A stretch of DNA of 64,000 nt from a virus, in IMG/VR virus record IMGVR_UViG_3300005841_000001, positions 37,658 through 101,657 of that record. One strand, 5' to 3'. This document shows, piece by piece, positions 4,836-51,897 of this stretch (within the stretch, counting starts at the first letter, position 1; the number at the start of each line of letters is the position of its first letter). The position numbers were made by a program, and so were the translations under genes. The notes under the pieces are model-generated. The model was not told the DNA's origin. It searched no databases and was given only the letters and a program-made list of their open reading frames with translations.

Positions 4836-6311
4836 ATGACGGACTCGCTCACCCGAGACATCGAACGCTGGTGGGGCGCCGAATCCGGCACCGACCTCAC
4901 CCGCGTCGACTTCGACGCCATCGGCTACGAAGTCGCCGGCATCCGGGTCTCGAATGCCGTCGCCGACCTCGACCCCCAGCTCTACGAAGCTCTCGCACTG
5001 CTCGAGCCGCCGGCCCCCCACCCCTGGCGGCGGACCGCGCTCCCGCACCAGGTCGAGGCCGCCGAGGCGACCGAGCCCTACGTCCTGATGTGCGCCGGCC
5101 GCGGCGCCGGCAAGACCTACACCGCGTCGCACACCCTCACCGAATGGATCGAGGAAGAGCCCGGCGACTACGCGATCATCGCGCCCACGTTCGGTGACGC
5201 CGTCAAGATCTGTGCCGAGGGCCCATCCGGGTTTCTCAAGGCCGCCGGCGACCGCGTCGAATCGTTCAACAAGAACGAGTTCATCGTCTACATGACGAAC
5301 GGTTCACGTGTCGTGCTCGCCTCCGCCGACGCCCCTGACCGCGTCCGCGGCTGGAACCTCACCGGCTTCTGGGCCGACGAACTCGCGTCCTGGAAAAAGG
5401 CTGAGATCTGGGACGAGGGCCTCGAGTTTGCGACCCGCATCGGGCGCACCCGCCGCATCATCACCACGACCCCGAAGCGCGGCTCGAAAGTCCTCAAAGA
5501 CCTGCTCAAGCGCGTCGATGCTGAAGACCCTGACGTCAAGCTGGTCCGCGCGTCCACCTCCGCCAACGCCGCCAACCTGTCCGAGACGTTCCTGCGCACG
5601 ATCCAGCAGCGCTACGCCGGCACCACCCTCGGCCGGCAGGAGCTCGACGGCATCCTGCTCGGCGACGTCGAGGGCGCCCTGGTCACCGGCGCCCAGATCG
5701 AGCGGGCTCGCGTCCGGCCCGCCGAGGTTCCGGAGCTGTGGCGGCTGGTCGTCGGCGTAGACCCCGCGGTCACGAACACCTCCGAGAGCGACGAGACCGG
5801 CATCATCGTCGCCGGCATCGGGCCGGCACCCGAGGGCTGGGAACCGCCCGTCGGCCAGCTCGTGCTCGCCGGCGCGCCGCACATCTACCTGCTCGAGGAC
5901 GTGTCCGGCCGGCGGTCGGTCAACGCGTGGGCTAAGCAAGCGCTCATCACCGCTGACGAGTGGGCCGCGGACGCGATCGTCGCGGAAAAGAACCAGGGCT
6001 ACGACCTGGTCGAATCGAACATCCGGCTCAACGCGCTGGTCGACCGGCTCGCCGTGCCGCACGTGCAGCTCGTGCACGCGGCCAAGGGCAAGTTCACCCG
6101 GGCCGAGCCGGTCGGCGCGCTGTTCGAGCAGGGCCGGTTGCACGTCGTCAACACGATGCCCAAGCTCGAGGACCAGTGGACGGAGTGGATCCCGGGCGAC
6201 GGCACCGTGTCCCCCGACCGGCTCGACGCCTCGGTGTGGGCGGTCGTCGGTTTGATGCCGGAGCTCGGGATTGGTGGCTCGGGTGCGGTCAAGATCCTGT
6301 CGGCCGGCTGA
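4836..6311 (+). CDS. terL: Terminase large subunit
   Basis: Encodes 491 residues, normal for the family. This is the DNA-packaging motor that translocates DNA into the prohead and cuts it. The N-terminal ATPase has Walker A AGRGAGKT (residues 87-94), a Walker B-like GFWADE (177-182) and a coupling motif TTTPK (210-214). The C-terminal RNase H-like nuclease begins around residue 305 with GVDPAV, whose Asp309 is the likely metal ligand. The ATG at 4836 follows a GGGGAGG Shine-Dalgarno. Unusually it stands alone among leftward early operons, 26 kb before the portal gene. Confidence 0.95.
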   Translation: MTDSLTRDIERWWGAESGTDLTRVDFDAIGYEVAGIRVSNAVADLDPQLYEALALLEPPAPHPWRRTALPHQVEAAEATEPYVLMCAGRGAGKTYTASHTLTEWIEEEPGDYAIIAPTFGDAVKICAEGPSGFLKAAGDRVESFNKNEFIVYMTNGSRVVLASADAPDRVRGWNLTGFWADELASWKKAEIWDEGLEFATRIGRTRRIITTTPKRGSKVLKDLLKRVDAEDPDVKLVRASTSANAANLSETFLRTIQQRYAGTTLGRQELDGILLGDVEGALVTGAQIERARVRPAEVPELWRLVVGVDPAVTNTSESDETGIIVAGIGPAPEGWEPPVGQLVLAGAPHIYLLEDVSGRRSVNAWAKQALITADEWAADAIVAEKNQGYDLVESNIRLNALVDRLAVPHVQLVHAAKGKFTRAEPVGALFEQGRLHVVNTMPKLEDQWTEWIPGDGTVSPDRLDASVWAVVGLMPELGIGGSGAVKILSAG

Positions 6312-10796: not shown

Positions 10797-10802
10797 GAGG
10801 CG

Positions 10803-10831
10803 AGTCTAGCCGAGCTAACTCGGAGCGTCAA
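10803..10831 (-). promoter_or_regulatory. Promoter with operator (leftward)
   Basis: Minus strand: -35 TTGACG, spacer with CCGAGTTAGCTCGG, -10 TAGACT, 6 nt to the ATG at 10796. The stop of the MazG-like gene directly abuts the -35 box. Confidence 0.9.
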
Positions 10832-19008: not shown

Positions 19009-19080
19009 GGCGCACTGGTCCAGCGGAACGGACACCCGGTTCTCACCCGGGAGACTCGAGTTCGACTCTCGGGTGCGCTA
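19009..19080 (+). tRNA. tRNA-Glu(CTC)
   Basis: A complete 72-nt cloverleaf: acceptor GGCGCAC / GTGCGCT, D stem GTCC/GGAC with a GG-containing loop, anticodon stem CCCGG/CCGGG around TTCTCAC (anticodon CTC), T stem TCGAG/CTCGG around TTCGACT, discriminator A. CCA is not encoded. It decodes GAG, the preferred Glu codon of this GC-rich genome. Confidence 0.93.
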
Positions 19081-19085
19081 CGCAA

Positions 19086-22684: not shown

Positions 22685-22927
22685 ATGAAGATCGATTTCG
22701 ATTGGCTGGAGTTCGCGCTGTGCCGGGGCGCCGACCCGGGGCTGTTCGACGCGCTCGACGGCACGCGCGACCAGGCCCGCGCCCTCGGCATCTGTGCCGA
22801 GTGCCCGGTCCGTTCCGAGTGCCTCGGCGCCGCGCTGCTCGAGGGCGACGACACGACCGTGCGTGGCGGCCTCACCCCGGAGCAGCGGCGCATAATCCGC
22901 CGGCGCGCCCATGTGCGTGCGGCTTGA
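22685..22927 (+). CDS. WhiB-like iron-sulfur transcription factor
   Basis: Encodes 80 residues behind GGAGGAGG. The four [4Fe-4S] ligands are C13, C37, C40 and C46 (C...C-x2-C-x5-C in ICAECPVRSEC), with the DPGLFDA segment and the turn VRGGLTPEQRR before a basic C-terminal DNA-contacting tail (RRIIRRRAHVRAA). WhiB proteins are actinobacterial; phage versions such as TM4 WhiB can block host WhiB2 and septation. It probably retunes host transcription early in infection. Confidence 0.92.
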   Translation: MKIDFDWLEFALCRGADPGLFDALDGTRDQARALGICAECPVRSECLGAALLEGDDTTVRGGLTPEQRRIIRRRAHVRAA

Positions 22928-25817: not shown

Positions 25818-26221
25818 GCGCCGGCGGTAAGGCCGAGGCGATGTCACGCTTGGTGACGGCCTACGACCGTGTCGGCGGGTACACGGTGTGGGTGGCGAGT
25901 GAGCTCACGCCGCCGGCGCGCCCGGTGTTCGGACCGTGGCCGGCGTGGGTCGGCGCGGCCGCCGAGCTCGCCGAGACGGCGATGCGTCTCGCCGCGACGC
26001 GCATCGAGATGAGCGAGACGGACCCGGTTCCTACCGAGACGCTCGCGCCCGTCGTGGTGCTTCTCGACGAGACGGCGCCGTGGGGTCGCGTCTCGCTGGT
26101 GCGAGACGCGATGGCCCGCGTCGACGTGAACCTGATCATGGTGAACCGAGACGGTACGGTCAGCACGGGCCCGAGTCGCTTCGCGCCGGCCCGAGACGAA
26201 AACGAGACGGAGGAGCCGTGA
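25814..26221 (+). CDS. Unknown protein whose gene is packed with CGAGACG
   Basis: Encodes 135 residues from a GTG overlapping the previous stop. No domain recognised. Its DNA carries ten CGAGACG/CGTCTCG heptamers in 238 bp, read in different codon phases (Glu-Thr, Arg-Asp, Arg-Leu, Val-Ser), which suggests selection on the DNA and not only on the protein. Ends in GTGA with the next gene. Confidence 0.7.
   Translation: MSAGGKAEAMSRLVTAYDRVGGYTVWVASELTPPARPVFGPWPAWVGAAAELAETAMRLAATRIEMSETDPVPTETLAPVVVLLDETAPWGRVSLVRDAMARVDVNLIMVNRDGTVSTGPSRFAPARDENETEEP
25972..26209. repeat. CGAGACG heptamer cluster, rightward
   Basis: CGAGACG on the plus strand at 25972, 26014, 26035, 26068, 26102, 26147, 26192 and 26203, and inverted copies at 25985 and 26089. 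From base composition well under one copy would be expected. Confidence 0.85.
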
Positions 26222-26481
26222 CGCTGCCCGCCCGGAGGGACATCCGCCGTGACCTCGCGGCCGCCGTAACGATCTTGATCGGCCTCACCTTCGCTGTCTG
26301 GTCATGCGCCTGGGGCGGCCCGCCGATGATCTTCATGTGGGGCGCGTGGATCATGTTCGCGTGCGCCGCCAAGCTCGGCTTGCACGAACCGACGCCGCCC
26401 GCGCGCGACCCCGGGCTGGCCGACCCCGAGGACCCGAACGCGATGCATGTCGAGTCCGTGCGCGGGCCTGACACGACGTAG
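26218..26481 (+). CDS. Two-span membrane protein
   Basis: Encodes 87 residues from a GTG overlapping the previous stop. Basic N-terminus (TLPARRDIRRDL), then hydrophobic segments at about 12-30 and 35-52, then an acidic tail. In position next to a TraB-like gene it resembles the small spread (Spd) membrane proteins of actinomycete plasmids, but this is inference. Confidence 0.7.
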   Translation: MTLPARRDIRRDLAAAVTILIGLTFAVWSCAWGGPPMIFMWGAWIMFACAAKLGLHEPTPPARDPGLADPEDPNAMHVESVRGPDTT

Positions 26482-26484
26482 CGC

Positions 26485-26517
26485 GCACGCGCCTACTCGC
26501 GCGTAGGTACGCGCACG
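26485..26517. repeat. Palindromic DNA, GCGCACG flanked
   Basis: CGCGCCTAC / GTAGG-CGCG inverted repeat with a 6-nt centre, bounded by direct GCGCACG copies, in the gap between convergent genes and between the two heptamer clusters. Confidence 0.5.
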
Positions 26518-26551
26518 AACGCCCCCGCACTCGTGAGTGCGGGGGCGTTTT
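26518..26551. terminator. Strong intrinsic terminator
   Basis: Perfect 16-bp stem AACGCCCCCGCACTCG / its complement, followed by TTTT, ending the rightward early transcript. Confidence 0.9.
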
Positions 26552-26595
26552 CCGTGCGGAAAGGGTTGGGAAAGGATCTACAGGTGGGGGCCCAT

Positions 26596-26656
26596 TTTCC
26601 GCCGTTCCGCGGGCCTATGGAAGGCGACGGAACAGGCCCGCGGAACGGCGCGGAAA
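26596..26656 (-). terminator. Long inverted repeat after the TraB-like gene
   Basis: Arms TTTCCGCCGTTCCGCGGGCC and GGCCCGCGGAACGGCG-CGGAAA pair over about 20 bp with a small bulge, 17 bp beyond the stop of the leftward translocase gene. Probably its terminator; a transfer-related role is possible. Confidence 0.6.
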
Positions 26657-26672
26657 GCTCGTGGAACGGCGG

Positions 26673-28694
26673 TCAGTTCGAGCTGGCCAGCACCTCGGTG
26701 AGCGCCCACGTCCCCTTGCTCGTGCGCCTCACCCGGCCGGCCTCCTCGTGCTCGGACAGCCGCTCGTATACCCACGACTTCTTGCGCGTGGCGGCCTCGC
26801 CCAGCTGTTCGTAGTCGAGCCCGGGCGCGCCCGCTTCGCGCAGCGCGGACAGCAGTGCGGCGCGCGCGTCTTCGTCGCTCAACCGCTCCGGCTCGGCCTT
26901 CAACGCGGCCGCGGTGGCGGCTCGACGCGCGTCGTCCTCGGCGAGCTCTTCGGGCGACATGTGCGCCCGGGCGGCCGCCTGGATGTCCTCGATCGTCGCG
27001 CTACCGTCCTCGACGAACGGCGGGATCGTCTCGGGTCCCGTCTCGCTCGTCTCGCCGTCGGTGACCTGCGCGTCTCCCTCGGCGTCTCGCCCATCTCGTT
27101 CGTCGTCTCGCATCTCGGTGACCTCCTGTCGGTTGGCGTATGCCTCGAGCTTCTCGATCCCGTCTCGGATCGAGTCGGCGTCCATCTCGGGTGTCTCGCC
27201 GCGCATCACGTCGGCGATTTGCTTCACGGTGTTGCGCGTGCCGTTCGAGCCATCGCCCACGAACACGATCCGCATCGGGATCCGGTCGAGCTTGTCGCCG
27301 TCCTGGTGGTAGCACGTACCCGGCCGCTCCGAGTCGATTTCCTCGGCGTGAACGTCACCCACGGTGATGACGAAGCTCTCGCCAGAGCTGCTCTGCATGC
27401 GGAAGCAGAACGCCTGGTCCAGCTGCTCACGGATCTGGCTCGACCCGATCGCGTCGAGGGTGGCGTACTGCGTGGCGATGATCAGCGACACTCCGACGGC
27501 GCGACCCTTGCGGGCGATCTCTTCGACCCGGAAAAGGGCCTTCGAGTCCATCTTCCCGAGCAGCGACGCAGCTTCGTCGATCGAGATCGCGAGCCACGGG
27601 TGCTCAGGTGAGCCCTCCCAGGACTTCCACCCGTACTTCTTCAGCAGCTGTCCGCGGCGCTCCACGATCTGTTCCGCGGCCTCGATCATCCGCATGGCGG
27701 ACGCGTAGTCGTTGACGATCCAGTCGAATACGCCCTCCCACGGGCCGAGCTCGGCGCCACCCTTGAGGTCGATGCCCCACTGCACGACGTCGTCGCACAG
27801 CGACAGCGTGGTCCAGATCAGGTTCAGCAGGCCGGACTTTCCCGACCCCTTGGTGCCGGCGATCAGCAGGTTGCGCGCGCCCCACCCTGCCTTGAAGATC
27901 CGCAGGAACTTCTCGGTGCCGTCGGCCCGGATTCCGACCTTGATCGGGTCGCCGCCGTGCAACGTGCGCAGTCGCGGGCCGTCCTCGGTCGGCTCGATCG
28001 GCGGCGCCCACATGATCCCCTTGGCGTGGGGGTCGTTGAGGGTGACTTGCAAGATCACCGAGTGGTTCGAGCGGCCGTCGCGTTCGATCTTGAGCGAGTT
28101 GTGCGGCAGGTCCAGTGCACCCTCGATCTCGTGCTCGATCTTCTCGACCTTCTTGATCGAGTGCATGCCCGGCTGCCACGACAGCTTGCCGACCCAGCCC
28201 ACCGCGGTGTGCGTGATTCCGACCAGGCGGGTGTCGCCGAGGCCGATCCGCGCGCCACGTACCGGCCAGTGTCGAATCAGGCCCTCGAGGTTCACGCGGG
28301 TGCGCTTGACCTGGTCCATCCAGTGTGGAATTGCCAGCACGATCGTGCCGGAAGCGAGTAGGCCCAGCGCCCACAGCCAGCCCTTGCCGGTGGAGAGTGT
28401 TGCGGCCCAGATGATCCAGCCGTTGATCGAGGTCATGATGGCGAGCCAGTGCAGCCGGCGCCATCCCTCGGGCACCCGGGTGACCACCCAGGCGGTCACT
28501 CCGAGGGTCCACGAGACCATGCAGATGGCCAGCAGCAACGTCTCGATGGTGATGTTGGCGAGGATGCCCATGATCAGCACGGGCACCGCGAGGTACACCG
28601 GCGCGAGGCCGATGCGGTGCATCCGCAGCCACTCGACGAGGCCGTACGATTCGACCTCCTCGACGGCCGGGGCAGAGGTCTTGCGCTTGCCCAT
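26673..28694 (-). CDS. TraB/FtsK-like DNA translocase
   Basis: Encodes 673 residues. The second ATG is chosen because AAAGGAG lies 6 nt before it. Membrane spans occupy about residues 31-70 and 85-125. The FtsK/SpoIIIE motor has Walker A AGTKGSGKS (279-287) and Walker B LAISIDE (368-374). An acidic linker (about 485-575) leads to a winged-helix C-terminus (ARAALLSALREAGAPGLDYE...). This is the layout of TraB proteins, which pump double-stranded plasmid DNA between actinomycete mycelia and bind 8-bp repeats through the C-terminal domain. The linker DNA carries the second CGAGACG cluster. A role in moving phage DNA is the alternative. Confidence 0.88.
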   Translation of the reverse strand: MGKRKTSAPAVEEVESYGLVEWLRMHRIGLAPVYLAVPVLIMGILANITIETLLLAICMVSWTLGVTAWVVTRVPEGWRRLHWLAIMTSINGWIIWAATLSTGKGWLWALGLLASGTIVLAIPHWMDQVKRTRVNLEGLIRHWPVRGARIGLGDTRLVGITHTAVGWVGKLSWQPGMHSIKKVEKIEHEIEGALDLPHNSLKIERDGRSNHSVILQVTLNDPHAKGIMWAPPIEPTEDGPRLRTLHGGDPIKVGIRADGTEKFLRIFKAGWGARNLLIAGTKGSGKSGLLNLIWTTLSLCDDVVQWGIDLKGGAELGPWEGVFDWIVNDYASAMRMIEAAEQIVERRGQLLKKYGWKSWEGSPEHPWLAISIDEAASLLGKMDSKALFRVEEIARKGRAVGVSLIIATQYATLDAIGSSQIREQLDQAFCFRMQSSSGESFVITVGDVHAEEIDSERPGTCYHQDGDKLDRIPMRIVFVGDGSNGTRNTVKQIADVMRGETPEMDADSIRDGIEKLEAYANRQEVTEMRDDERDGRDAEGDAQVTDGETSETGPETIPPFVEDGSATIEDIQAAARAHMSPEELAEDDARRAATAAALKAEPERLSDEDARAALLSALREAGAPGLDYEQLGEAATRKKSWVYERLSEHEEAGRVRRTSKGTWALTEVLASSN
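27027..27166. repeat. CGAGACG heptamer cluster, leftward
   Basis: Read as CGTCTC(G) on the plus strand at 27027, 27039, 27048, 27071 (last base C), 27083, 27104 and 27161, with CATCTCG and TGTCTCG variants between, inside the linker-coding part of the translocase gene. Orientation is opposite to the 25972-26209 cluster. Confidence 0.85.
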
Positions 28695-28761
28695 GCTCAT
28701 CTCCTTTACGGGCAGGGCCCGGCCGAGGAGTCCCCGGCCGGGCGCGTCGTGTTTTTCCTGG

Positions 28762-29991
28762 TCAGCTGCGTGCCGGCGCGATCGCCGGCGCGGTGAGCAT
28801 GCCGCGCAGGTACGGCCAGTAGTACGTTTCGAAGTCCGCGATCACGGTGGTCAGACCGCGCGCGGTCTGCGCCATGCCTTCGCGAGCCATCCGCATCCCG
28901 GGTCGCGTGATCGACATGTCGATGTTGCAACCGCGCTGCGGACCACCCGGTCGATTCAGGGTGCGCTCTGCCGTGTCGAGCGCCTCGGCGCCGACGACGA
29001 ACGCGCGCTCGAGTCCGACGATCCAGGCGCGGAGTTCGTCGAGGGTCCACGGCTTGTCCGCTCGAGGCTTGAGCTCACCCCACGCGAGCAGCGCCTGTTG
29101 CACATTGCGTGCCTCACCGCAGTCGGTCATCGCCTTTTCTCCAATCCTGACGAGCTGGTCACTGTGGGCCTTGATGTAGTCCTCGGCCTTGAACCGGCGC
29201 CGGCGGTGGCCGGGGCGGTGTCGCCCGGCCGGCGTGCGCCGGCGGCCGCGGCGTCCGTGCGCCGGCGGCAGGACGCGTACGGTGCCTGCCGTCGCCTTCG
29301 TCGTGCCGGGGGCGAGCAGGGCCTGCTCGCCCGAGCCGGTCGCCAGTGACGCCTCGCCTTCGTGCTCGGCGAGCCAATGCGCGTTCAGCGCCTCGGCGTT
29401 GGCGTAGGTCTTGTCGCAGCACTGGAACTTCGAGCCCCACCCTGCTGGGCGTCGCTTGCGCGGCGAGGTCGCTGCCTGGGCCGCACGCCGGGCGCGGGCC
29501 CGCTTCGCAGCTTTGGCCGCTTTCGTGGCAATGCGCACTGAGCCGGCGGTCGTCGCCCCTGCGCCGACCGCCACCCACGCCACAGCGCGGGTGATCTTCA
29601 TCTTCTTGGGGATCCGGTGCACGAACTTCTTGCGCGCCTTCCACCGGTCCTTGGTGGTCTTCTGCTTCTTGGTCTTGGGCGTCTTGCCCGGCTTCAACGA
29701 CGCCGGCAGCTTCGCCGGCTTGGCGCCCACGGTGCCGGTTGCCGTCGCGGCCGCGACCTCCGCCGCCCGGCGTTGGGCCCGGGTCTGCTTGACCTCTCCG
29801 GTCTGGGCGAGCATGCGCAGGGCCTCGCGCGCCTGCTCTTCGCGACCAACCTCATGGCGCAAGCTTCGCTTGGCGCCGGTACCCAGATCAGCGTCGGCGG
29901 GCCTGTTGGTGTCAGCGTTTCGTCGACGTTGCCGCGCGGTTCGCTCGTCCCTGCGCAGGGTCCCGTCCCCGAGTCGCTCAGGCTGGCTCAC
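28762..29991 (-). CDS. C2H2 zinc-finger, membrane-linked plasmid-transfer type protein
   Basis: Encodes 409 residues from a GTG overlapping the DUF2637 stop. The N-terminal 140 residues are very basic; one weak span lies near 140-165 (AVAWVAVGAGATTAGSVRIA). A C2H2 finger follows (CCDKTYANAEALNAHWLAEH, about residues 190-212), then an Arg/Gly-rich stretch and a helical C-terminal domain. Its place between translocase and DUF2637 genes matches transfer loci of actinomycete plasmids. Confidence 0.75.
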   Translation of the reverse strand: MSQPERLGDGTLRRDERTARQRRRNADTNRPADADLGTGAKRSLRHEVGREEQAREALRMLAQTGEVKQTRAQRRAAEVAAATATGTVGAKPAKLPASLKPGKTPKTKKQKTTKDRWKARKKFVHRIPKKMKITRAVAWVAVGAGATTAGSVRIATKAAKAAKRARARRAAQAATSPRKRRPAGWGSKFQCCDKTYANAEALNAHWLAEHEGEASLATGSGEQALLAPGTTKATAGTVRVLPPAHGRRGRRRTPAGRHRPGHRRRRFKAEDYIKAHSDQLVRIGEKAMTDCGEARNVQQALLAWGELKPRADKPWTLDELRAWIVGLERAFVVGAEALDTAERTLNRPGGPQRGCNIDMSITRPGMRMAREGMAQTARGLTTVIADFETYYWPYLRGMLTAPAIAPARS

Positions 29992-30767
29992 TGTGCGATC
30001 GCCTCCTTGGTCTCCTGCTGCTGCGCGAGCCACGTCGCGCGCACCTTCCGGCCGAGCGTCGGCCGGGTGCCGAGGTACTGCGCACCGAACCGGTCCAGTT
30101 CGGCGCCGGTGGTGTCTCCGTGCTCGTCGAGGTAGCGCAGCATCGCGTCACGGGGGCGGCTACGCAGGTCGTCGGTGAGCCATGCCGGCGCGCCGGCGAC
30201 AGGCAAGGCCTCGCCTTCGCCGGAGAGGACTCGCAGCGACGTCCCCGTAGCGGGCGCCGCGTCCGGCTCGACCGCTACCGGGGGGGCGGGGACGTCGCTG
30301 CTGGGAACCCCCGACGCTGCTGGTGACGGCACAGCAGCGGCGGGGGCGGCCTTGCGAGCGCGCTTGATGCGCGGCTTCACGTCGAGGCGGACCAGCTTCA
30401 GGATCAGTTCGTACGCGAACGCGAACGCGGCGGCCGGCCACATGTTGATCACCTGTCCGGCGGCGTCCGCCGCGGGTGCGGAGAAGTTCGCTACCAGGGA
30501 AATCGCGAGCGCGACCACGATCGCTACAACGGCGAGCGCGGGGACCTTTTCGCCGTTGCGGCGGGCCTGCACGACCACGATCGAGGCAACCACCATGAGT
30601 GCGTCGACGGACAGCGGAGTGAGCCACGAGAGCCACTCGGTTCCGGTGGCCGCGTGGTGGGCAGCGAGCTCCCGCATGTGCACGTAGCTGGCCGTGGCTG
30701 CCACGCCGGCGACCAGGCCACCGAAGCCAAGACCGGCGTTCCGGACGCTTGCGCTGGTGCTCGACAT
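29988..30767 (-). CDS. DUF2637 (Spd-like) membrane protein
   Basis: Encodes 259 residues. The ATG at 30767 has GGAAG 7 nt upstream. Four hydrophobic segments in the first 135 residues, with the HHAATGTEWLSWLTPLSVDALM region characteristic of DUF2637, then a Pro/Ala linker and a wHTH-like end (LRSRPRDAMLRYLDEHGDTT). Such proteins accompany TraB in plasmid spread between hyphae. Leftward operon head, under the bidirectional promoter at 30825. Confidence 0.85.
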   Translation of the reverse strand: MSSTSASVRNAGLGFGGLVAGVAATASYVHMRELAAHHAATGTEWLSWLTPLSVDALMVVASIVVVQARRNGEKVPALAVVAIVVALAISLVANFSAPAADAAGQVINMWPAAAFAFAYELILKLVRLDVKPRIKRARKAAPAAAVPSPAASGVPSSDVPAPPVAVEPDAAPATGTSLRVLSGEGEALPVAGAPAWLTDDLRSRPRDAMLRYLDEHGDTTGAELDRFGAQYLGTRPTLGRKVRATWLAQQQETKEAIAQ

Positions 30768-30824
30768 GCCCACTCTTCCTGTCGATTTGTCGACTGGTCA
30801 GTAGCTACGGTTTGTACGTACCAC

Positions 30825-30853
30825 TATGCAACTGGTGCACCCAGTTGTAAAGT
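30825..30853. promoter_or_regulatory. Bidirectional promoter with GntR-type operator
   Basis: Rightward: TATGCA, 17 bp, TAAAGT. Leftward: TTTACA, 17 bp, CATAGT. The shared spacer holds the palindrome CAACTGG-TGCAC-CCAGTTG, flanked by ACCACT/AGTGGT. It stands between the DUF2637 and GntR genes, so the GntR protein probably represses both directions (KorSA-like). Confidence 0.75.
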
Positions 30854-30887
30854 GGTAGCCACCAGTGGATCGGAAGGGAATACGAAC

Positions 30888-31631
30888 TTGACCAAGAAAC
30901 AGGACGTAGCGGACGCCCTTCTCGAGGCGATCACCGCTGGTCAGCTGCGTCCTGGCCATAGGTTGCCCTCGGAGCGAGAGCTGGCCGACAAGCACAGCGC
31001 CAGTCGCGAGGCCGTGCGCGGCGCGCTGCACCTGCTCGCCGAGACCGGCCACGTCTACGCCGAACACGGATCCGGCTGGTATGTCCGCGACCTCGAGCCG
31101 CTGCGTTACCCGCTGCACACCATCGACGCCGGCCGAGCCAGCGCCACCGCCGACGTCTGGGACAAGTTCGTGCTCGGACTGGGGCGCACCGCAGGCAGTG
31201 AGCTCATCGTCAACCCGAGCGTCATCCCGCCCGAACGCATCCGCGCGAAGCTGGGACTCGAGTACGGCGAACCCGCGGTCGAGCGGCGCCGCGTCCGGCT
31301 CGTCGACCGCGAGCCGTGGATGATCTCGACCGGGTGGTGGCCGCGGTGGATCGCCAAGGGCACGGACATCGAGAAGCCGCACCAATGCTCCCCGCTGAAG
31401 ATCGCCGGACAGCTGGGCCATGGGCAGTTCAAGAGCGAAAACGAGATCGCTTCACGGATGCCGTTCGGCTCCGAAGTCGAGGTGCTCAAGACCGGGCGCG
31501 GCGTCCCGGTGATGGACATGCTCACCACCGGATGGGACGAGGGCGGCCGCGCAATCCGCTGCACGTCCGATGTCTTCCCTGCCCACCGGTTCCTGCTGGT
31601 TTTCCAACACGACTGGAGCGACGGAAGATGA
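30888..31631 (+). CDS. GntR/HutC-family repressor (KorSA-like)
   Basis: Encodes 247 residues. The first credible start is a TTG with GGAAGGG upstream. The N-terminal winged helix is typical (AITAGQLRPGHRLPSERELA ... ASREAVRGALHLLAETGHVY, residues 10-62) and the C-terminal 170 residues fit a UTRA ligand-binding domain. KorSA-type GntR proteins silence tra genes and plasmid functions in actinomycete elements. Overlaps the GNAT gene by ATGA. Confidence 0.9.
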   Translation: MTKKQDVADALLEAITAGQLRPGHRLPSERELADKHSASREAVRGALHLLAETGHVYAEHGSGWYVRDLEPLRYPLHTIDAGRASATADVWDKFVLGLGRTAGSELIVNPSVIPPERIRAKLGLEYGEPAVERRRVRLVDREPWMISTGWWPRWIAKGTDIEKPHQCSPLKIAGQLGHGQFKSENEIASRMPFGSEVEVLKTGRGVPVMDMLTTGWDEGGRAIRCTSDVFPAHRFLLVFQHDWSDGR

Positions 31632-32185
31632 CCGCCACCATGACCAACCCGGCCGCCGAGAAGAGCCTGCATGTCGAGGCTGTCGACAGCGAGATGATCG
31701 AATACGCGCTGGGCCCGCTCGACGCCGCTGCGCGCTGGCTCGCCGACTGCGGGATCGAACAGTGGCCCATGTCGTTCACCGAGTCGCCCAAGCGCACCGA
31801 CTGGCTCAAGGAACAGGCCGACCTCGGCAACGTCCTCGTGTGGTTCGCGCTCGGCACCAATCCGGTCGCCACCCTCACGCTGACCCCGTGGCAGGACCCC
31901 GACTTCGCCGCTGGCTGGCCGCAACGGGACGCGTTCGCGCAGTATGTTGCCCGGTTCGCCGTCGCGTCGCTCGGCCGGCGGTTGCTGCCCGGTCTCGGCG
32001 CGCGCATGCTCGATCACGCCGCCACGATCGCTGCGCAGCGTGGCGCCCGGGTCTTGCGTCTGGACTGCGCGAAGCGCAACGACCGGCTCCAGCGCTACTA
32101 CCTGGACCACGGGTTCGAGCACGTCGGCACTGTGGAAGTCCCGGGCCGCAAGTCCGGCGCGCTGTTCGAAAGGGTCATCCCATGA
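31628..32185 (+). CDS. GNAT-family N-acetyltransferase
   Basis: Encodes 185 residues. The acetyl-CoA-binding region shows GLGARMLDHAATIAAQRGAR followed by LRLDCAKRNDRLQRYYLDHG, the typical A and B motifs. It uses acetyl-CoA to acetylate an unknown amine, perhaps a protein or antibiotic. GntR-GNAT pairs recur in actinomycete integrative elements. Coupled to both neighbours by ATGA. Confidence 0.88.
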   Translation: MTATMTNPAAEKSLHVEAVDSEMIEYALGPLDAAARWLADCGIEQWPMSFTESPKRTDWLKEQADLGNVLVWFALGTNPVATLTLTPWQDPDFAAGWPQRDAFAQYVARFAVASLGRRLLPGLGARMLDHAATIAAQRGARVLRLDCAKRNDRLQRYYLDHGFEHVGTVEVPGRKSGALFERVIP

Positions 32186-32349
32186 ACATCAACTGGAAGT
32201 TCTGGATCGGCCTCGCTATCACGGCGCTGATCCTGTACGCGGTGATCAAGTACCCCGAGACATCCGCCGCCAACGTGCACACCGGACTGAACAAGGCCGG
32301 TGACGGCGCTGACCACATCGGCACCTTCCTCGGCGGCCTGTTCAAATAG
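32182..32349 (+). CDS. 55-residue single-span membrane protein
   Basis: MNINWKFWIGLAITALILYA begins a single membrane span (residues 6-23), then a short polar tail with a Gly-rich end (HIGTFLGGLFK). Overlaps the GNAT gene by ATGA and ends the GntR operon. Function unknown. Confidence 0.75.
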   Translation: MNINWKFWIGLAITALILYAVIKYPETSAANVHTGLNKAGDGADHIGTFLGGLFK

Positions 32350-32448: not shown

Positions 32449-34044
32449 GTGGCCAAGCGTGAGTTCCTGCCCGCATTGCGCGGCCTCGCCGCCGCCGTGT
32501 GGGGCAGTGGCGCCGTGGAGTCCAAGGACCTCGCGCAGCGGGTGCGCGCATCCTCGGCCGGCTACCAAACCCCTGGTCAGCCCTACGTCGATAACTGGAA
32601 CGTCCGCCGCGCCACGAAGGAAGCCTACGAGGGAAACCCGCTGGTCTACCGGGCCATCGAGGTCATCTGCCAGCAGGCGATCGCCCAGCGGATCATTATC
32701 CGCCGCGGTGACCCGGAGGAAGGCCCGATCGTCCGCCCCGGCAACGACCCAAGTCGCCTGCTCTACGTGCTCAACCGCCGGGCGAACCCGTGGGAAACCG
32801 CGCTGATCTTCCGGCATCGGCTGGTCGCGCAGTTCCTGCTCTCTTCGCGCGGCGTCTTCATCGAGGTCATCCGCACGCGCTCGGGCAAGATCGGCATCCT
32901 CAACCTCCTCGACCCGGACCTGTGCGCGAACATCCCGGTCGAAAAGCGCGATCCCGTCACCAACGAGGTCCTCGAGTCCGACCCGATTGGCGTGGTGGAA
33001 GTCCAGGTCCCCGGAGGCGGGTACGACTACCTGCCCCGGTTCAACCCGCACGCCACCGCTGAGAACCAGCCGGCTTCCGTCCTGTGGATCCGCTCACCGC
33101 ACCCGCTCGTGCTCTGGCGGGGCATGTCCCCCGTTCAGGCGGCTGGCCTGCCGATCGACCTCGACCGTTACGCCCGGATTTACAACCGCCGGTTCCTCCA
33201 GAACGACGGCCGGCCCGGCGGGCTGATCTCGATCAAAGGCACCGTCGACAAGGGCACGATGGAGCGGATCCAAGCCCAGTTCAACGGCGGCCCCGAGTCG
33301 GCCGGCCGGACCACCGTCGTCGAGGGTGACTCGGTCAGCTACGCCGACACCTCCGGCAGCCCCCGGGACATGCTGTGGGGTGAGCTGTCGAACGCCACCC
33401 GCAAGGACATTGCGATGACCTTCGGTACGCCCGAGTCGGTGCTGGGAGACGCGTCCGGGCGCACGTTCGACAACGCGGATGCCGAGTGGGAGATCTTTTG
33501 GGAGGGGCGAATGAAGCCCCTGCTGGGCACGTTGGACGATCAACTCGACGTGCTTACTGGCGGGTACGACGACGACTTCTACCTGCGTCACGACCTGTCC
33601 AAAGTGTACGTTTTGGGTCGTCACCAGCGCGCCGAAGAAGATCGCGCCGTTGCCGACTACGACAAGGGCATCCGCACCATCGACGAAGTTCGGGACGTCA
33701 AGAGGCTGAGGACGTACGACATCCCCGCTACCCGTGTGCTCTGGCTCGCCGGCGGCAAAATCCCCGTCGGGCAGGACGAGGCCGACACCGAAGCGGCCGC
33801 CGCGCTCCAGACTGCCGGCATCGGACAACCGGCCAACGCCGGCGCCGAAGCGCAGGCCGGCGCCGCGGTTGGGTCGGCGCTCGGCGCTCGGATCTCTGCC
33901 AACGACAACGACGCCCGCGTCCTGCGCGTGCAGTCTTCGCGCGCGGACCTCGAGCCGGCCCTGGGCACCAAGGCGCTGCCCGCGGAGGATCCGGAGGGTG
34001 AGCAGAGCCGCGCGCGAGCCGTACGCACCCCTGAGTGGCGATGA
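32449..34044 (+). CDS. Portal protein
   Basis: Encodes 531 residues from a GTG with GGAGGTGG upstream. HK97/SPP1-type portal features: EGNPLVYRAIEVICQQ near residue 60, the VLWIRSPHPLVLWRGMSPVQ region, LDRYARIYNRRFLQNDGRPG, and FGTPESVLGDASGRTFDNAD, where portal proteins contact the terminase side. It forms the dodecameric DNA gate at one capsid vertex. The C-terminal 80 residues are Ala-rich and overlap the MuF-like gene. Confidence 0.93.
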   Translation: MAKREFLPALRGLAAAVWGSGAVESKDLAQRVRASSAGYQTPGQPYVDNWNVRRATKEAYEGNPLVYRAIEVICQQAIAQRIIIRRGDPEEGPIVRPGNDPSRLLYVLNRRANPWETALIFRHRLVAQFLLSSRGVFIEVIRTRSGKIGILNLLDPDLCANIPVEKRDPVTNEVLESDPIGVVEVQVPGGGYDYLPRFNPHATAENQPASVLWIRSPHPLVLWRGMSPVQAAGLPIDLDRYARIYNRRFLQNDGRPGGLISIKGTVDKGTMERIQAQFNGGPESAGRTTVVEGDSVSYADTSGSPRDMLWGELSNATRKDIAMTFGTPESVLGDASGRTFDNADAEWEIFWEGRMKPLLGTLDDQLDVLTGGYDDDFYLRHDLSKVYVLGRHQRAEEDRAVADYDKGIRTIDEVRDVKRLRTYDIPATRVLWLAGGKIPVGQDEADTEAAAALQTAGIGQPANAGAEAQAGAAVGSALGARISANDNDARVLRVQSSRADLEPALGTKALPAEDPEGEQSRARAVRTPEWR

Positions 34045-37012: not shown

Positions 37013-40000
37013 ATGACCGTGCCCGCAGGGCTGGAGTACAAGACCGCCGGCACGCTCACGCCGGAGATCCCGCCGGCGCTCGCGGGGCCGAAGCACGAGG
37101 GCATCGTCACCGCCATCGTCGCGGTTACCGGCGTCAAGGACGATGTCGACGACGTCATCATTCCCGGCGCGTTCAAGCGGACTCTTGCCGAGCGACGACC
37201 CAAGGTCTGCCTCGGACATGACTGGAATCGTCCCATCGGCAAGACCCTGGACATCAAGGAGCTGATGCCGGGCGACCCTGACCTGCCGAAGACCACGGGG
37301 GAGGGGCAGCCGTGGCCGGTCGAGGCCGGTGCCGTCATCGCGCGTTCGCAGTACAACATGGACACCGAGGACGGCCGGAAAGCCTTCCAGGATGCCATGT
37401 TCTACGGCGAGCAGGAGTGCTATCAGTCCATCGGGTACCGTGTCCCGCCGGAAGGTAAGAAGTTCAAGGGCGGCGTGCGCTATATCCATGACCTCGACCT
37501 CTTCGAGTACGGGCCTGTACTGCACCCGGCGAACCGGCTCGCCACGATCCAGTCCACGAAGGACGACGGCGGAGCTCGCGAGGACAACGCCGTCAAGCCA
37601 GCCGAGATCAAGGCGCGAAAGTACGTCAAGGATTCCGCGTACTGGGGCTTGCCCGTCGGAACTTTGATCACGCCCGGCATGAAGCCGCGCGGTCGGACTG
37701 CGCTCGCCGAACGACGAGCAGGCAAGACTCCCGACCGCAACGCCGGTGTTGCTACCGAGCCGCTCAAGCCTTCGCCCGCGACCGGGAAGCCGCGGTCGGT
37801 GCCGCACAAGCCCGAGAAGGCGAAGGAAGAGCGCGACTCGGCCGGCCTCTTCCCCGAGCCGGACGCGCCCGAGGGTGCACGGGTCAAGCCGTCCGACCCG
37901 CAGGGCCTCGACGCCGAGCACGTGCAGGATCTCGTCGAGAACGAAGCCGGCGAGCAGGACCACGTCGCGCGCGATCACGCGTTCAACGGCCTGATCGATG
38001 AGGGCATCACCCCGGCCGAGCTCGAAGAGGACTTGCGCGCCTCCGAGCACTGGCCTGACGAGATGCCCGAAGAGGACCGGCAGGCCCGGATCGACGACGT
38101 CGTCAACGACTATCGCCGGCAGTACCGCCGTGAAGCTGCGCGCCAGGCCAGCAACCCCGAACCGCGCGAGCAGCACCCCGATGACGACAACCTCGCCGTC
38201 GAGAAGGAAGAGGCCGAAGGAACCGCGAAGCCCGAACTCGAGCCGGATGCCAAGCGCGACATCACTACGCTGACGCCCGAGGAGCTCGACAAATACATGG
38301 AGGTGGCCCGAAAGGGTTCGCTGTCCAACGTCGGGGACAAGCAGCGTCGGTACCAGGACGTGTACGCCAAGGCGCAAGCGGAAAAGCTGCGCCGCGCTGA
38401 CGTCGAGCGCCGGTCCGTGCCTGCGCATCCGCTTGACCCCAAGGCGTACGCCGAAGCCACCCGCGCCGTCGAGGCGCGACGCGGCCGCGTCGCCGACGTG
38501 CAGCGACGCAACCAGGAAATCAGCAAGACCAACGCGCAGATTGACGCGTCCGAAGAGGTTGCGACGAACGCGCCCGAGACGATGAAGAAGCTTCCGGCTG
38601 GTGCCGGGAAGAAGGTGTCGAAGGCAGGCAACGGCCGAGTCGCTTTCCGTGGGAAGGGCACAGCGAACTGGGCCATCGTGTCCGCCGATGGCCGAGCCAT
38701 CGTGTCGCCGCTGAACTTCGAGAGTGAGGGACGCGGGAACGTCAAGCTGTCCGGCCCGCAGCTGGATGAACTTGCCGATCGGATCGTCGGCATCACCAAC
38801 TCGAAGGGCGACCGCGCACCGTTCACTGACCCCGACTCTGAGAAGTGGGTGCCCGGCTTCCGCGACTCCGATGGGCGCAGCCTCGAGCAAGCAGTGTCCA
38901 AAGTGGTCGCCGACTACGCGAACGAGCGCGGCCTGAAGTCGGGCACGCGCACGCGCATCGGTGCGGACTCCGTCCCATGGGGCCACAAACAGGGTGAACA
39001 CGGCGTGGTCAACGCCGAAGGGTTCCACCCGCAGGAGCGGATTCAAGACGTCGGTATCGGCGACCAGGTGAAGCTCCGCAACGGTGATGTCAAGACGATC
39101 GCGAAGAAGGAGGAAGCCACCGGCTCGCAGCGGGACCGCTACGGTGTCGACGTTTTCACGCTCACGTTCGACGACGGTACGACCGAGAAGTTCAGCACCG
39201 GCCAACGGTTCGACACCAAGTACAGCGACGAGAACAACCCCGACGCCGAAGGCCGACTCAACGACCCGGGCATGGGGTACACCAGCGACTCGAACCTGGG
39301 CAGCAAGCGGGACAAGCTGCGTCCGACGTTCAAGGGCGACGGCGACGTGCCCGCGGGGACCCGGTTCATCTACACCCCGGATCGCGCCGACGGCGACAAC
39401 CGCCCCCGTGTCGGCACCGTCACCGACCGCGTGATGAACGCCAACGGGCACGAATTTCAGGTCGTCGAGTACGACGATGGAACTTTCGATGGCGTCAACG
39501 TCTCGAAGCTCGCGGCCGACGGCAAGATCAAACTCAAGCCGACGCCCGAAGACGAGGCCGATGCCCGAGCGCAGTGGGGTGTCGGTGACGGTGCAACAGA
39601 AACCGGTTCCGACTTGGGAGAAGGCGAGTCGGACACCGAGGATGTTGGAGCGTCCGAGGGCGACGGCACGCCACCCGAGGGTGAGCCGGCCGACGACACC
39701 GCGCCCGAGGGCGATCAGCCACCCGCGGCCGATGACGACGAAGCCGCCCGGGTCGCCAAGCTCGGCGCCGAAGACAATCCTGACCGCACCCCGATCGCCG
39801 GCCTGGCGAACCAACTCACCGGCCAGGCGAAGCCGGACGTCTCCGACGTCAGCACCGAGGACCTGAACGCGCTGGACCAGGAGTTCGCCCGGCGCGCCGA
39901 CCTGCTCGGCAAGCCCGGCGCCGTCACCCGTGCACACCAGGCGGTCAAGGACGAACTGACCACTCGGACCGACACCGGTGCCGAACCGGCCCCAGAGCCG

Positions 40001-43000
40001 GACGGTGGGCTCGGCGCCGACGAAGCGGTGATCAGCCGCGCTGAAGTCGATGACGCCCAGCGCATCGCCGACGAAATCCTGGGTGTCACCGAGGGGCCCG
40101 ACGGCGAGCTGGAAGCCGACCCCGACGTAGCCGACCGGCAGGATCGCGTGGAAGCCCTGCTCGATCAGGCCGAATCCGGCGCACTCGACCTCGAGTCCGC
40201 CAGTGACGATGTCGTGACCGGACAGCGGCGGGACCTGGTCGAGGAGCTGCGGTTCCAGAACGCTGTCGCTCGGCGTGACAGCCGACAGCGGCAGATCACC
40301 CGGGCCGATGAAGGCGGCCGACAGCCCCGCGCCGAAGGCGACACTGAGCCGGATGCCGGCACGGAGGCGGAGGGCACCGGACCCGCGCCTGAGTCGAAGG
40401 CGCGTCCGGGCGTCGCCGGCGCGGCCGAGGACCTCGCCGATGCGCTCGATGACAACGACCAGCAGGCCGCCGCCGCCGCGGTCGCTCGGCTCGAGTCCTC
40501 GGTGCGTCGTTCCCGTTCCGATTCCGAGCACCTCGCTCCCCTGCGCGAAGCTCTCGCCGGCGACGGCGGGATCCAGGCCGCGCTCGACGCCGGCACGATC
40601 ACTCCCGCAACGCTGCGCGACTTCGCGAAGAACCTGCGCGACGAACGCCGGCAACAGGCCAACACTCGAGCCCGCGCCCGACGCACGGTCAAGCGGCTCG
40701 AGCGTGAGCGGTTGCGCGGCCTGATCGGCGCCTACGACACCGAGCTGCGCCGGCGCAACCTCGAGCCCGAGAACTTCGGCGGCCTGGTGCCTGCCATCGA
40801 CGAGGGCGCCGGCCGGCCCGAGGTGACCGGGGATGCCGACCTGCCGGAGGGCACTGAAGCCGGCGAGCTGGATGTCAGCAATGCTGAGACCGGCCCGAGC
40901 GGCGAGCGAGCCTCCCGGCTGGTCGCCGAGCCGTGGCGGGTCGTCAACTCGGACGATGCCGCGATGAACGGCGGCGACGCCACCTCGGCGGCCACCCGGA
41001 AGGCCGCCGCCGCCGCGTTCGCCGAGGTGGCCGACAAGTATGCGCCGGTCCTGCGAGAGGCCACGCCCGAGCAGCTCGCCGCCGCCGAGGCGAAGCTGGA
41101 CAAGCGGGGCGCCGACGTCCGCAGTGAAGCGATGGTGATCGCCCTGCTGCTGCCCCGCGGGACGCAGCGAGACGCCTTCATGGCCGACATGCGTACCGCA
41201 ATGGGCAACTACCAGACCAATCTCGCAGCCCTACAGGCTCGCGCCGACCGCGGCGAAGTCAGCCTCGACCCGGCGCCCGAGCTGGGTTCGATCGCGCCCG
41301 GGCGCGTCGGGTGGGGCGGCCGGCTCAATGCGCTGGCACCTCGCCAGCGAGCAGACCGGCCGGCCGGTACGCCGCCGTTCAGCACGGTCTCGCAGGTCAA
41401 GAGCAACCTCAAGTCGCTGACCGCGCCCGCCGGATCGAGCGACTTCGAGCAGAAGACGTTCACCGAGGGCCGTGACCAGTTGATTCGCGAGATCGACGCC
41501 GCCGGCAACGACGTCTTCCTCTCCCCTGGTGGTGGGCTGCTCGCTTTCCGGGCCACCACCCGCGACGGCAAGCGCTGGTTCTTGATCCATACCCAGAGCG
41601 GGCAGTCCATCCCGTCGCTGTTCAACTTCGACGGTCGACAGACCGCCCTCACTCCGGCCACCGGACGCGGTGTGGAAGCTCAACGCTACGACCTCGACGG
41701 GCCGGCCATGCGTCGACTGATGACCGCGTTCGAGACCATGCAGGATCCGCGCGGCCGGCAAGTCGACTTCACCGAGTCGGATCCGGATCGGTTCGCGCAG
41801 AACTTGGTCGGGTGGCGAGACTTCTCCGCTGACGGAACCGTGCGCCCGGCCTTTGTGGATGGACGCCCTCGCTACAACGATTCGATGGAAGGGGCCGCCA
41901 TTCTCGAGGCGGTCCGCGATGACATGCGCCGCTACGGCACCACCTCCGCAGTGCACCGTGCGACACAGATGGTGGCAGGCGGCACCGAGTACACCGGCGT
42001 CAACGGACGCAGCCCGCAGCAGTACCGGCAACTGATGAACGAGCAGTTTCCGTTCGCGTTGCAGGACTTTAACTACGGGCGCAAGCGAGTGCGCGGCATC
42101 GGCCCATCCGAAGACCGCACGCCGGGGGAGCTGAAGAGCGACAAGGACACCGCCGCCGCGATCGATCAGGCACGCGCACTGATCCAGACCGGTAACCCCG
42201 TCGAGGCAGTGTCGGTGTTACGTGCCCGCGCGGCTGAGCTCAAGGACACCGACGGCGAGCGCGGTGGTCGGTTCGGCTCGCAGCGGCTCGAGGGCCTGGC
42301 CAACCAGACCGCCGACCTGTTCTCGCCGGCGCAGTCCGATATGGACCGTCTGATCGGCGCGCAACAGAATGACGTCATCGCGGTGGCCAGCACCGACGAC
42401 GAGCCTCCGATGTTGTTCCGGCTCACCGTCGAACCGCGGCTCGTGCTCACCCGCAATGACGGCACCCGGCTTTACCAGGCCAGCGTCACCAGCGACCGCA
42501 TGGGTGACCAGGACGTCACCATCGACACCGCCGATCAGTACGGCGTGCGCATTGGCGATCGGTCCGCCACCCGCGAGCAGACCAACCTCGGTCAGTCCGG
42601 AATCAACCAGTGGGCGGTGTACCGCGCCGAGGAAGGGCAGGGCGCGCCGGTGGACAACACGCAGATCTTGCGCGATTCGAAGCGCACCCTGCGCGAGTTC
42701 GACCGGTCGGCCGGGTTCGGCGACGGTGAAGACGAGGGCGATCAGGGTGGTGGCGGGGGAGGGCCAGACCAGGGGCCCGACGGCGGCCCCGATGAGACCG
42801 GCGGTGAACGACCGGTGGCCGCCGAGGGAAAAGCGATCACCGTCGACCAGGCCAAGATCGGCGACCTGGTCGCCATCCCGTCCGGACAGGATGAGCCGCC
42901 GTTCGTCGGGCACGTCATGGGCAAGAACGTCCTCGAGGACACCCGGGCGCTGCTCGTGCTGGGCCCGCAGGGCGATGTCCGCACCTACCCGCTGGACGCC

Positions 43001-50427: not shown

Positions 50428-51897
50428 ATGCCCGGAGTGTCCGTCACCACCGGCACGATCTCGGGCCCGAGCGCGCCAGCTCGTGCCCCGTCCAGCACAT
50501 ACTTCGCGGCCGGCCTCACCGAGCGGGGGCCCATCACCCCGCCGACCGTGCGCAACGCCATCTACAGCTTCAACCAGTTCGTCGCCACCTACGGCGCCCG
50601 GCCCTCCTTCGGCACCGCGTGGGACGACATCAAGACGTTCTTCGAGGAGGGCGGCACCCGGCTGTACTTCCAGCGGATCGTCGGCCCCGCGGCCGCCGCC
50701 GGAACTCTCGGCTCGGCGCTCGCCGACCGGGCCACCACTCCGGACGACACGCTGACCGTGGCCGCGGCAAGCCCTGGGGCCTGGTCCTCGCGCGTCAGCT
50801 TGAACGTGGTCGACGGTCCGACGGCCGCGACCTACCGGATCCAGGTGATGCTCGACGGGGCGGTGGTCGAGGACTTCACGAACCTCTCCAGCCCGCAGAA
50901 CGGCATCTCGAAGATCAACGCGACATCGCAGTTCATCCGGCTGGCCGACGCCGGCTCGACCACCGCGGCGCCGAACAACAACCCGAAGGCCACCACGACG
51001 CCGGTCACGATCGCCGCCGGCACCGACGACCGGGCCTCGATCAACACCGCGAGCTACATCGCCGCGCTGGACAAGTTCAGCGACGGCCTCGGCGACGGAA
51101 TCGTGGCACTGCCCGGCATCGGCCCCTCCGTGCACACCGCGCTGATCGCTCACGCTGACGCCCACAACCGAGTCGCCGCGCTGGCCGGTGCCCGGGGTGA
51201 CGACAAGGCGACGATGGCCAGTTACGCGGCCTCGATCGACGCCAAGCGGGCCGGCTACTTCGCGCCGTGGGTGCAGATCCAGGACGGGTTCGGCGGTGTG
51301 CGGGCCATCTCGCCCGAGGGCTTCGTGGCTGCCTGCCGAGCTCGAGCGCACGAACGGGTCGGCCCCTGGAAGGCCGCCGCCGGCGAGACCGGCAAGGCCC
51401 GGTTCCTGGTCGGCCCCGATCAGGTGTTCACCCCGGCGGAGGCGAACGACCTCGACGGCTCGAAGGTCAACATCATCCGGATCCTCGCCGGAGCGACCCG
51501 GCTCTACGGGTGGCGATCGCTCGCGGCCGACGTCGACAACTGGGGCATGCTCACCGGCGCGGACGTGATCAACCGGATCGTCGTCGAGGCGGCCGCGCAG
51601 ATGGAGCCGTACGTGTTCGACGTGATCGACTCTTCCGGGCACCTGCTCGCCTCGGTCACCGGCACGTTGACCGGCATCGTGCAGCCCATGGCCTCCGCCG
51701 GCGGGCTGTTCGCCGGCCGCGACCCCGCCGGGGACATCGTGGACCCCGGCTACAAGGTCACCGCCGACGACACGAACAACCCCGTGCAGTCGTTGGCGCT
51801 CAACCAGATTCTCGGTGCGGTCGGCGTGCGTGTCTCGCCGACCGCGGCGATGGTGTTCATCCAGGTGTCCAAGGCCGGCGTCACGGCCTCGCTGTAA
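50428..51897 (+). CDS. Tail sheath protein
   Basis: Encodes 489 residues behind GAGGAGAGG. Sheath features: MPGVSVTT start, STYFAAGLTERGPITPPTVR, a YFAPWVQIQDGFGGVRAISP stretch, and the C-terminal FIQVSKAGVTASL with the core PVQSLALNQILGAVGVRVSP. It polymerises around the tube and contracts to drive it through the cell wall, showing the phage is a myovirus. Confidence 0.93.
   Translation: MPGVSVTTGTISGPSAPARAPSSTYFAAGLTERGPITPPTVRNAIYSFNQFVATYGARPSFGTAWDDIKTFFEEGGTRLYFQRIVGPAAAAGTLGSALADRATTPDDTLTVAAASPGAWSSRVSLNVVDGPTAATYRIQVMLDGAVVEDFTNLSSPQNGISKINATSQFIRLADAGSTTAAPNNNPKATTTPVTIAAGTDDRASINTASYIAALDKFSDGLGDGIVALPGIGPSVHTALIAHADAHNRVAALAGARGDDKATMASYAASIDAKRAGYFAPWVQIQDGFGGVRAISPEGFVAACRARAHERVGPWKAAAGETGKARFLVGPDQVFTPAEANDLDGSKVNIIRILAGATRLYGWRSLAADVDNWGMLTGADVINRIVVEAAAQMEPYVFDVIDSSGHLLASVTGTLTGIVQPMASAGGLFAGRDPAGDIVDPGYKVTADDTNNPVQSLALNQILGAVGVRVSPTAAMVFIQVSKAGVTASL

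Follow-up and report, generated by a model that had tools for sequence, protein, structure and literature searches.

We analyzed a 64,000-nucleotide stretch of viral DNA (the window; bases 37658–101657 of the 101,657-base IMG/VR record IMGVR_UViG_3300005841_000001, here G000), in which a set of transfer-type genes lies directly before the portal gene of a contractile-tailed phage. This module (26673–31631; positions are those of the window unless a record is named) comprises a minus-strand operon encoding a TraB/FtsK-type translocase (traB), a zinc-finger (ZnF) protein and a DUF2637 protein, and a divergent gene for a GntR/UTRA regulator (Table 1). We favor the view, at a probability of about 0.55, that the module is a plasmid-type system for transfer of double-stranded DNA (dsDNA), owned by this phage lineage since its common ancestor. 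The combination of tra and virion genes is already known in the Streptomyces plasmid-phages pZL12 and pCQ4 (Zhong et al. use this term for pZL12 in their title; see also PMC4487206). What is new here is the contractile tail, the lack of detectable ParA and integrase, and the retention of the operon and its candidate cis-site across a lineage. Among contractile-tailed phages without plasmid partition and integration genes, we found no other phage-plasmid hybrid.

Transfer-type genes in a contractile-tailed phage lineage

The ends of G000 are identical over 120 bases, indicative of a closed assembly of 101.5 kb in which virion genes and tra-type genes occur together. A second contig (17,249 bases), 99.98% identical to G000 61340–78588, spans the module, the portal gene and the genes that follow. 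This contig, which may or may not share its source sample with the record, passes through the junction, and hence there is no assembly join. Sheath, portal, terminase and capsid genes are all present, and a tape measure (2.1e-35) and major head protein (3.5e-54) were detected, like the sheath, with Pfam and PHROGs. Thus, the genome is that of a contractile-tailed phage, as a preliminary description of the window had proposed; Pfam matches likewise bear out the FtsK_SpoIIIE, DUF2637, GntR plus UTRA, GNAT and portal genes named there. The replication genes of the record are phage-like (DNA polymerase/primase, UvrD-type helicase, exonucleases and SNF2-type helicase).

Seven mixed FtsK/TraB proteins proved too diverse to yield a profile suitable for scanning contigs, and an alignment of the portal protein was used instead. 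It identified 80 IMG/VR loci, ∼20 of which form a close clade at roughly 46–61% identity. In bacterial genomes it found 31 loci, none of them above 38% identity. Portal matches were also seen in the Streptomyces phage Gilgamesh, seven circular Streptomyces plasmids of 125–132 kb, a Thermobispora plasmid, and Gordonia and Brevibacterium phages. In the labels used below, G denotes records and L portal loci; L024 is G003, and L028 and L029 are counted together. The traB–ZnF–DUF2637 operon adjoins a homologous portal gene in L020, L026, L028/L029, L032, L033, L035 and L045, and in L027, where the whole block is turned around and GntR remains divergent. In total, at least eight further IMG/VR contigs carry both the operon and a homologous portal gene; in some of these relatives the zinc-finger gene was recognized only by position or pattern.

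In a tree of 24 proteins, the nine translocases of this kind (type A) form one clade, with support of 95/96. For the contigs that carry them, branching of the portal tree matches that of the translocase tree, except that L027 and L032 pair in the former. Both trees join G000 with L020 (among type-A carriers), and L026, L045, L033, L029 and L035 are ordered alike. Selection was estimated by NG86 only, for one pair (L029/L035). Values of dN and dS were 0.17/0.63 for traB, 0.25/0.62 for DUF2637 and 0.45/0.76 for the zinc-finger gene, which indicate purifying selection on the first two and, weakly, on the third. The matching trees, the single translocase clade and the purifying selection together argue that the module is an old phage trait, inherited alongside the portal and other virion genes.

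Two records, G002 (128,202 bases, ends identical over 91 bases) and G003 (a 55-kb fragment), have no type-A translocase. Loss of the module was considered for these and discarded; their portal-side slot is occupied by a divergent GntR gene, a gene for a DUF2637-like protein, and one for an 814–835-aa ATPase with a P-loop and a DEAS motif. The DUF2637-like match is weak in G002 (0.0053, below the cut-off) and was made by alignment only in G003. Profile comparison links the ATPase to type A (98.2%, E = 3e-14); its AlphaFold2 (AF2) model was unusable (pLDDT 34). Because L024 (G003) pairs in the portal tree with L020, a type-A carrier, the translocase has probably been exchanged for another type in this slot.

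From a reading of the sequence, the probable starts of the zinc-finger and GntR genes are GTG 29991, overlapping the DUF2637 stop, and TTG 30888. The zinc-finger protein noted in the preliminary description is indeed in the operon, with homologs between the traB and DUF2637 genes in L020, L026 and L045, but its finger is degenerate (pattern CC...H...H) and it has no Pfam match in the window. A C2H2 pattern is seen in L029, L035 and L045, and C2H2 models match the protein of one relative weakly, below the cut-off. The C-terminal end of the DUF2637 protein is helix-turn-helix (HTH)-like, and GntR homologs adjoin the portal in L020 and L024/G003. All these genes, together with the GNAT acetyltransferase and small membrane proteins, had been described as a Streptomyces-type transfer kit. 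The traB–ZnF–DUF2637 core of that kit is conserved, but phmmer searches found neither the GNAT nor the 55-aa and 87-aa membrane proteins beside the portal in clade relatives. These three are therefore not established as kit members, and the GNAT gene probably lies outside the module.

Table 1. Positions of the main features in the 64,000-nucleotide window
Feature	Position	Strand	Basis
Terminase large subunit	4836..6311	+	PF03237 1.9e-18
87-aa membrane protein, convergent with traB	26218..26481	+	Predicted from sequence
Noncoding repeat cluster directly after traB, candidate clt	26482..26672	.	Repeat search; window scoring
TraB/FtsK-type dsDNA translocase, 673 aa	26673..28694	-	PF01580 (FtsK_SpoIIIE) 1.1e-10; predicted fold; own tree clade
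Degenerate C2H2 zinc-finger protein, 409 aa from GTG 29991 or 350 aa from 29814	28762..29991	-	
DUF2637 membrane protein, Spd-like candidate	29988..30767	-	PF10935 5.8e-15; hydrophobic segments; 13-sequence alignment
Candidate GntR operator: 17-nt inverted repeat (88%) separating the divergent genes	30819..30857	.	Repeat search
GntR/UTRA transcriptional regulator	30888..31631	+	PF00392 3.4e-16, PF07702 5.6e-17
GNAT acetyltransferase	31628..32185	+	PF00583 5.6e-08
55-aa one-helix membrane protein	32182..32349	+	Predicted from sequence
Phage portal protein, anchor of conserved neighborhood	32449..34044	+	PF04860 (Phage_portal) 6.7e-40; portal tree
Tail sheath protein	50428..51897	+	phrog_23 7.7e-36; 41–46% identity to Gordonia, Brevibacterium phage sheaths

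The translocase and the repeats beyond its gene

An AF2 model of the translocase, built from nine sequences, has a mean pLDDT of 72. N-terminal helices (residues 31–149, modest confidence) precede an alpha/beta RecA-type motor, a low-confidence disordered linker (∼514–572) and a C-terminal winged-helix pattern (607–665, pLDDT ∼84–90); hydrophobic segments lie at 28–46, 53–71 and 105–123. The protein is thus predicted to have the N-terminal membrane part and C-terminal winged helix of a TraB. Its FtsK/SpoIIIE motor domain was detected by Pfam and by Foldseek, whose top matches to the model were the conjugative coupling protein TcpA (1.6e-17) and then the FtsK motor (4.7e-17). Sequence profiles agree with this fold assignment.

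By sequence, the translocase does not fall with plasmid TraB but forms a separate clade, and bit scores are similar against plasmid TraB, Gilgamesh FtsK and other plasmid translocases. Translated searches returned distant FtsK/TraB relatives only, in phages and plasmids, none spanning 80% of the protein. Because sequence does not favor TraB over FtsK-like proteins, its likeness to TraB rests on architecture and on the clt-like repeats after the gene. A second FtsK-like match in the record, at G000 10650–10835, proved to be a UvrD-type helicase and no translocase.

Short direct and inverted repeats, noncoding and with a contig-specific unit, lie directly 3′ of the traB stop codon in all nine type-A contigs. 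In the window, this cluster contains a 17-nt perfect inverted repeat (26600–26616/26634–26650), direct repeats GCCCGCGGAACGGCG, a few GGAACGG-type units, and a diverged copy of a clade element, ACCTGTA...CTCCCCCAGCCCCCT. An element near ACCTGTAnnnACTCCCCCAGCCCCCTC is common to seven of the nine contigs, with 0–3 mismatches in G004, G007, L033 and L035, and 6–7 in G000, L020 and G011, partly via one-base shifts. It was not found in L027 or L032, nor in G002 and G003 (best 8 mismatches), which carry the other translocase.

Repeats were scored in a fixed 160 bases after the traB stop and ranked against windows of the same contig. This segment is in the top 0.02–2.1% of windows across the nine contigs (top 0.35% in this genome). 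Fisher's method gives a combined p of 1.2e-12, but it assumes independence, which related contigs do not have, and the actual significance is lower. Positive controls with a cluster at the same place were pJV1 (0.7% of windows), pCQ4 (1.2%) and pCQ3 (1.3%). Other plasmid controls were intermediate (1.7–5%), and the same scoring showed no such cluster in Gilgamesh, CP108533, pZL12, an S. globisporus plasmid or phage Tomas. TraB has been reported to assemble at clt via 8-bp TRS repeats (PMC4170104), and the post-traB cluster, which lies at the place expected for clt, is a likely candidate for such a site.

Contig-specific clusters of 6-mers were also seen where the translocase operon ends and as far as 2 kb past that point, in part within the coding region for the translocase linker. 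In the window these lie at 25960–26220 and 27000–27210, with CGTCTC/CGAGAC as the G000 version; CGAGAC clusters recur in L020, G002 (39500–42500) and G003 (41000–44000). Elsewhere (G004, G005, G007, G011, L033 and L035), the clusters consist of CGGGAC, CGGGAA, GCGGGA or CGGGGA. The 6-mer cluster is the most enriched region in seven of the nine contigs tested and ranks fourth in G011; L032 is truncated. These clusters track phage lineage, not translocase type, and the C-terminal HTH of DUF2637 covaries with them. They were set aside as a candidate TraB site: because G000/L020 and G002/G003 share CGAGAC yet differ in translocase, the translocase is unlikely to be the reader of this motif.

Proposed mechanism and life style

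In the mechanism we propose, the TraB-like translocase would be anchored in the membrane by its N-terminal helices, its C-terminal winged helix would bind the repeat cluster just beyond traB, and the motor would pump phage dsDNA into the adjoining hyphal compartment or cell. SpdB2 is reported as a membrane protein that binds DNA and interacts with TraB (PMC4170104). The role of spread protein at the cross-wall may fall to DUF2637, possibly joined by the zinc-finger protein, with GntR/UTRA keeping the operon in check. The likeliest use would be for the phage genome to travel through the mycelium, and perhaps into hyphae in contact with it, without being packaged in virions. Repeat binding, DNA pumping and this biological use are steps that we infer, as is a filamentous host; the host is probably an actinomycete. 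Spread between hyphae, suggested in the preliminary description, is plausible.

Several known plasmids have a similar layout. In pJV1, GntR is divergent from the tra operon, as in the record; the pJV1 operon is traA–traB, with an FtsK-type translocase, and CCGCACA is repeated nine times immediately after traB, in the place of the clade repeats. However, pJV1 is an 11-kb plasmid, its TraB is distant (75–92 bits to the window protein) and adjoined by TraA, and no DUF2637 gene occurs in the stretch viewed. In three plasmids, DUF2637 genes lie near traB-like genes on the same strand. In the circular genomes of pZL12 (NC_013420), pCQ4 (NC_019307) and pCQ3 (NC_013449), of 85–90 kb, a GntR gene lies near a tra operon that includes an FtsK/TraB gene, and terminase, portal and capsid genes are close by. 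As in the clade, short repeats immediately follow traB in pCQ3 and pCQ4. The portals of pZL12 and pCQ4 were absent among the matches of this portal.

Gilgamesh and the 125–132-kb circular plasmids (e.g. CP108533) resemble the record in portal and capsid protein (∼31–37% identical) and part of the tape measure (∼25%), and have an FtsK-like gene. In these elements, however, that gene is far from the portal, outside the clade and not followed by a repeat cluster; ParA and integrase are present, and no sheath is annotated. The nearest cultured virion relatives are the Gordonia phages Chidiebere, ChisanaKitsune and GMA6, and the Brevibacterium phage Cantare (sheath 41–46%, portal 34–37% identity). 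No FtsK/TraB-like match was found in any Gordonia or Brevibacterium phage record.

Within the transfer reading, the phage could be a phage-plasmid of the pZL12/pCQ4 kind, with a circular plasmid prophage, conjugation in the plasmid phase, and partition and replication genes too diverged for recognition. This sub-case we hold tentatively, at somewhat less than even odds. It accords with the gene order of pCQ4 (divergent GntR, traA, traB, then terminase, portal and capsid) and with ∼30 palindromic promoter-like sites before early genes (see below), suggestive of a master repressor and a quiet state. Yet ParA (PF13614) and a tyrosine integrase, found in all five reference elements (Gilgamesh, CP108533, pCQ4, pZL12 and the Thermobispora plasmid), were not detected in any of nine clade records, several of which are fragments; serine integrases were not detected in these records either. 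Moreover, 741 actinomycete genomes (best match 311 bits, against 600–914 for full-length clade portals) and the portal scan of bacterial genome contigs yielded no clade member, though hosts may be unsequenced, and no plasmid record has a close sheath. An actinomycete integrative and conjugative element (AICE), or any integrase-based reading, was dropped, the record having no tyrosine or serine recombinase.

The promoter-like sites have the form TTGAC-palindrome CCGAGnnnnCTCGG-TAGTCT, or TTGAC-n-AGCCGAGnnnnCTCGGCT-AGTCT, with the palindrome in the spacer. On both strands they closely precede early genes, mostly in intergenic DNA and often 10–50 bases before the start codon, and they span ∼1999–24907, with more at G000 12690–37548. 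The same search on shuffled sequence gave 1–7 matches. G002 holds a family of sites of the same layout, with CCTAGnnnnCTAGG. These sites are probably operators of a phage-wide repressor or regulator, and because the palindrome is built into the promoters, they suggest one master repressor and hence a possible quiet state. A 219-aa protein (15996–16655) with two HTH-like stretches (below the cut-off) and clade homologs is preceded by one palindromic promoter, which makes it a candidate master regulator.

Further features of the window include a gene for a WhiB-like protein (22685–22927; PF02467 4.3e-15) that has clade homologs, and two phage-borne tRNA genes, for tRNA-Gln (14535–14626) and tRNA-Glu (19009–19081). 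Between the portal-side genes and the capsid gene, 37013–45886 encodes a 2957-aa protein, short stretches of which resemble large proteins of Gilgamesh and CP108533.

Other readings and biological meaning

Several observations weigh against a plasmid-type transfer system. By bit scores and tree, the translocase is no closer to plasmid TraB than to other FtsK-like proteins; GntR was unrecognized in several clade members; and, as noted, the clade lacks detectable ParA and integrases and has no member in the 741 genomes. The window's own repeats are modest, weaker than those of G011 or pJV1, and GGAACGG occurs 32 times in the genome, with 3 of these in the cluster.

One alternative concerns the cluster itself, which could be a replication origin, a partition site or a terminator region rather than clt. 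The genes on either side converge on it, and it includes a terminator-like inverted repeat (26518–26549) and a conserved element of unassigned role. We nonetheless judge this rather unlikely, given that plasmids whose TraB is known or annotated (pJV1, pCQ3 and pCQ4) have clusters at the same place and that the conserved element was not found in the two records with another translocase.

Another alternative is that the translocase is a phage FtsK-like factor that works within one cell, in DNA entry, genome separation or septum clearing before packaging, with the repeats orienting it (KOPS-like) and no cell-to-cell transfer. Tomas, the StarPlatinum/Karimac group and many other Streptomyces phages do have FtsK-like genes; in sequence the clade translocase stands roughly as near to phage FtsK-like proteins as to plasmid TraB; and without detectable ParA or integrase a plasmid state is not evident. 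But no end cluster follows the FtsK-like genes of Tomas and Gilgamesh (0.61 and 0.65 of windows, respectively, score as high), and neither DUF2637 nor GntR is seen in the stretch inspected around the Tomas gene. The clade operon pairs its translocase with DUF2637, and often GntR, as plasmids do. We therefore consider a one-cell role improbable.

A further possibility, to which we give a low probability, is a conjugation-type movement system by which, during infection, the naked replicating genome would be pumped across cross-walls into neighboring compartments and so spread through a mycelium without virions or a plasmid prophage, in the way that plant viruses use movement proteins. Finally, a chance recent origin of the module or a join made in assembly, the latter named in the preliminary description as grounds for refutation, has almost no probability: no point in its favor was found, and the closed assembly, the second contig through the junction, the conserved neighborhood and the matching trees refute it.

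Until now, only a few Streptomyces elements were known as plasmid-phages with transfer genes. In the present case, a transfer-type module is kept across an entire uncultured lineage of large contractile-tailed phages and inherited with the portal gene, and the slot is retained even where the translocase has probably been swapped for another type. These features suggest that cell-to-cell DNA transfer is a selected trait in these phages. The lineage also supplies candidate cis-sites and a candidate regulator operator. If a plasmid-type transfer system is indeed at work, phages of filamentous bacteria would spread in two ways, and the line between phages and plasmids would be less sharp than is often assumed.

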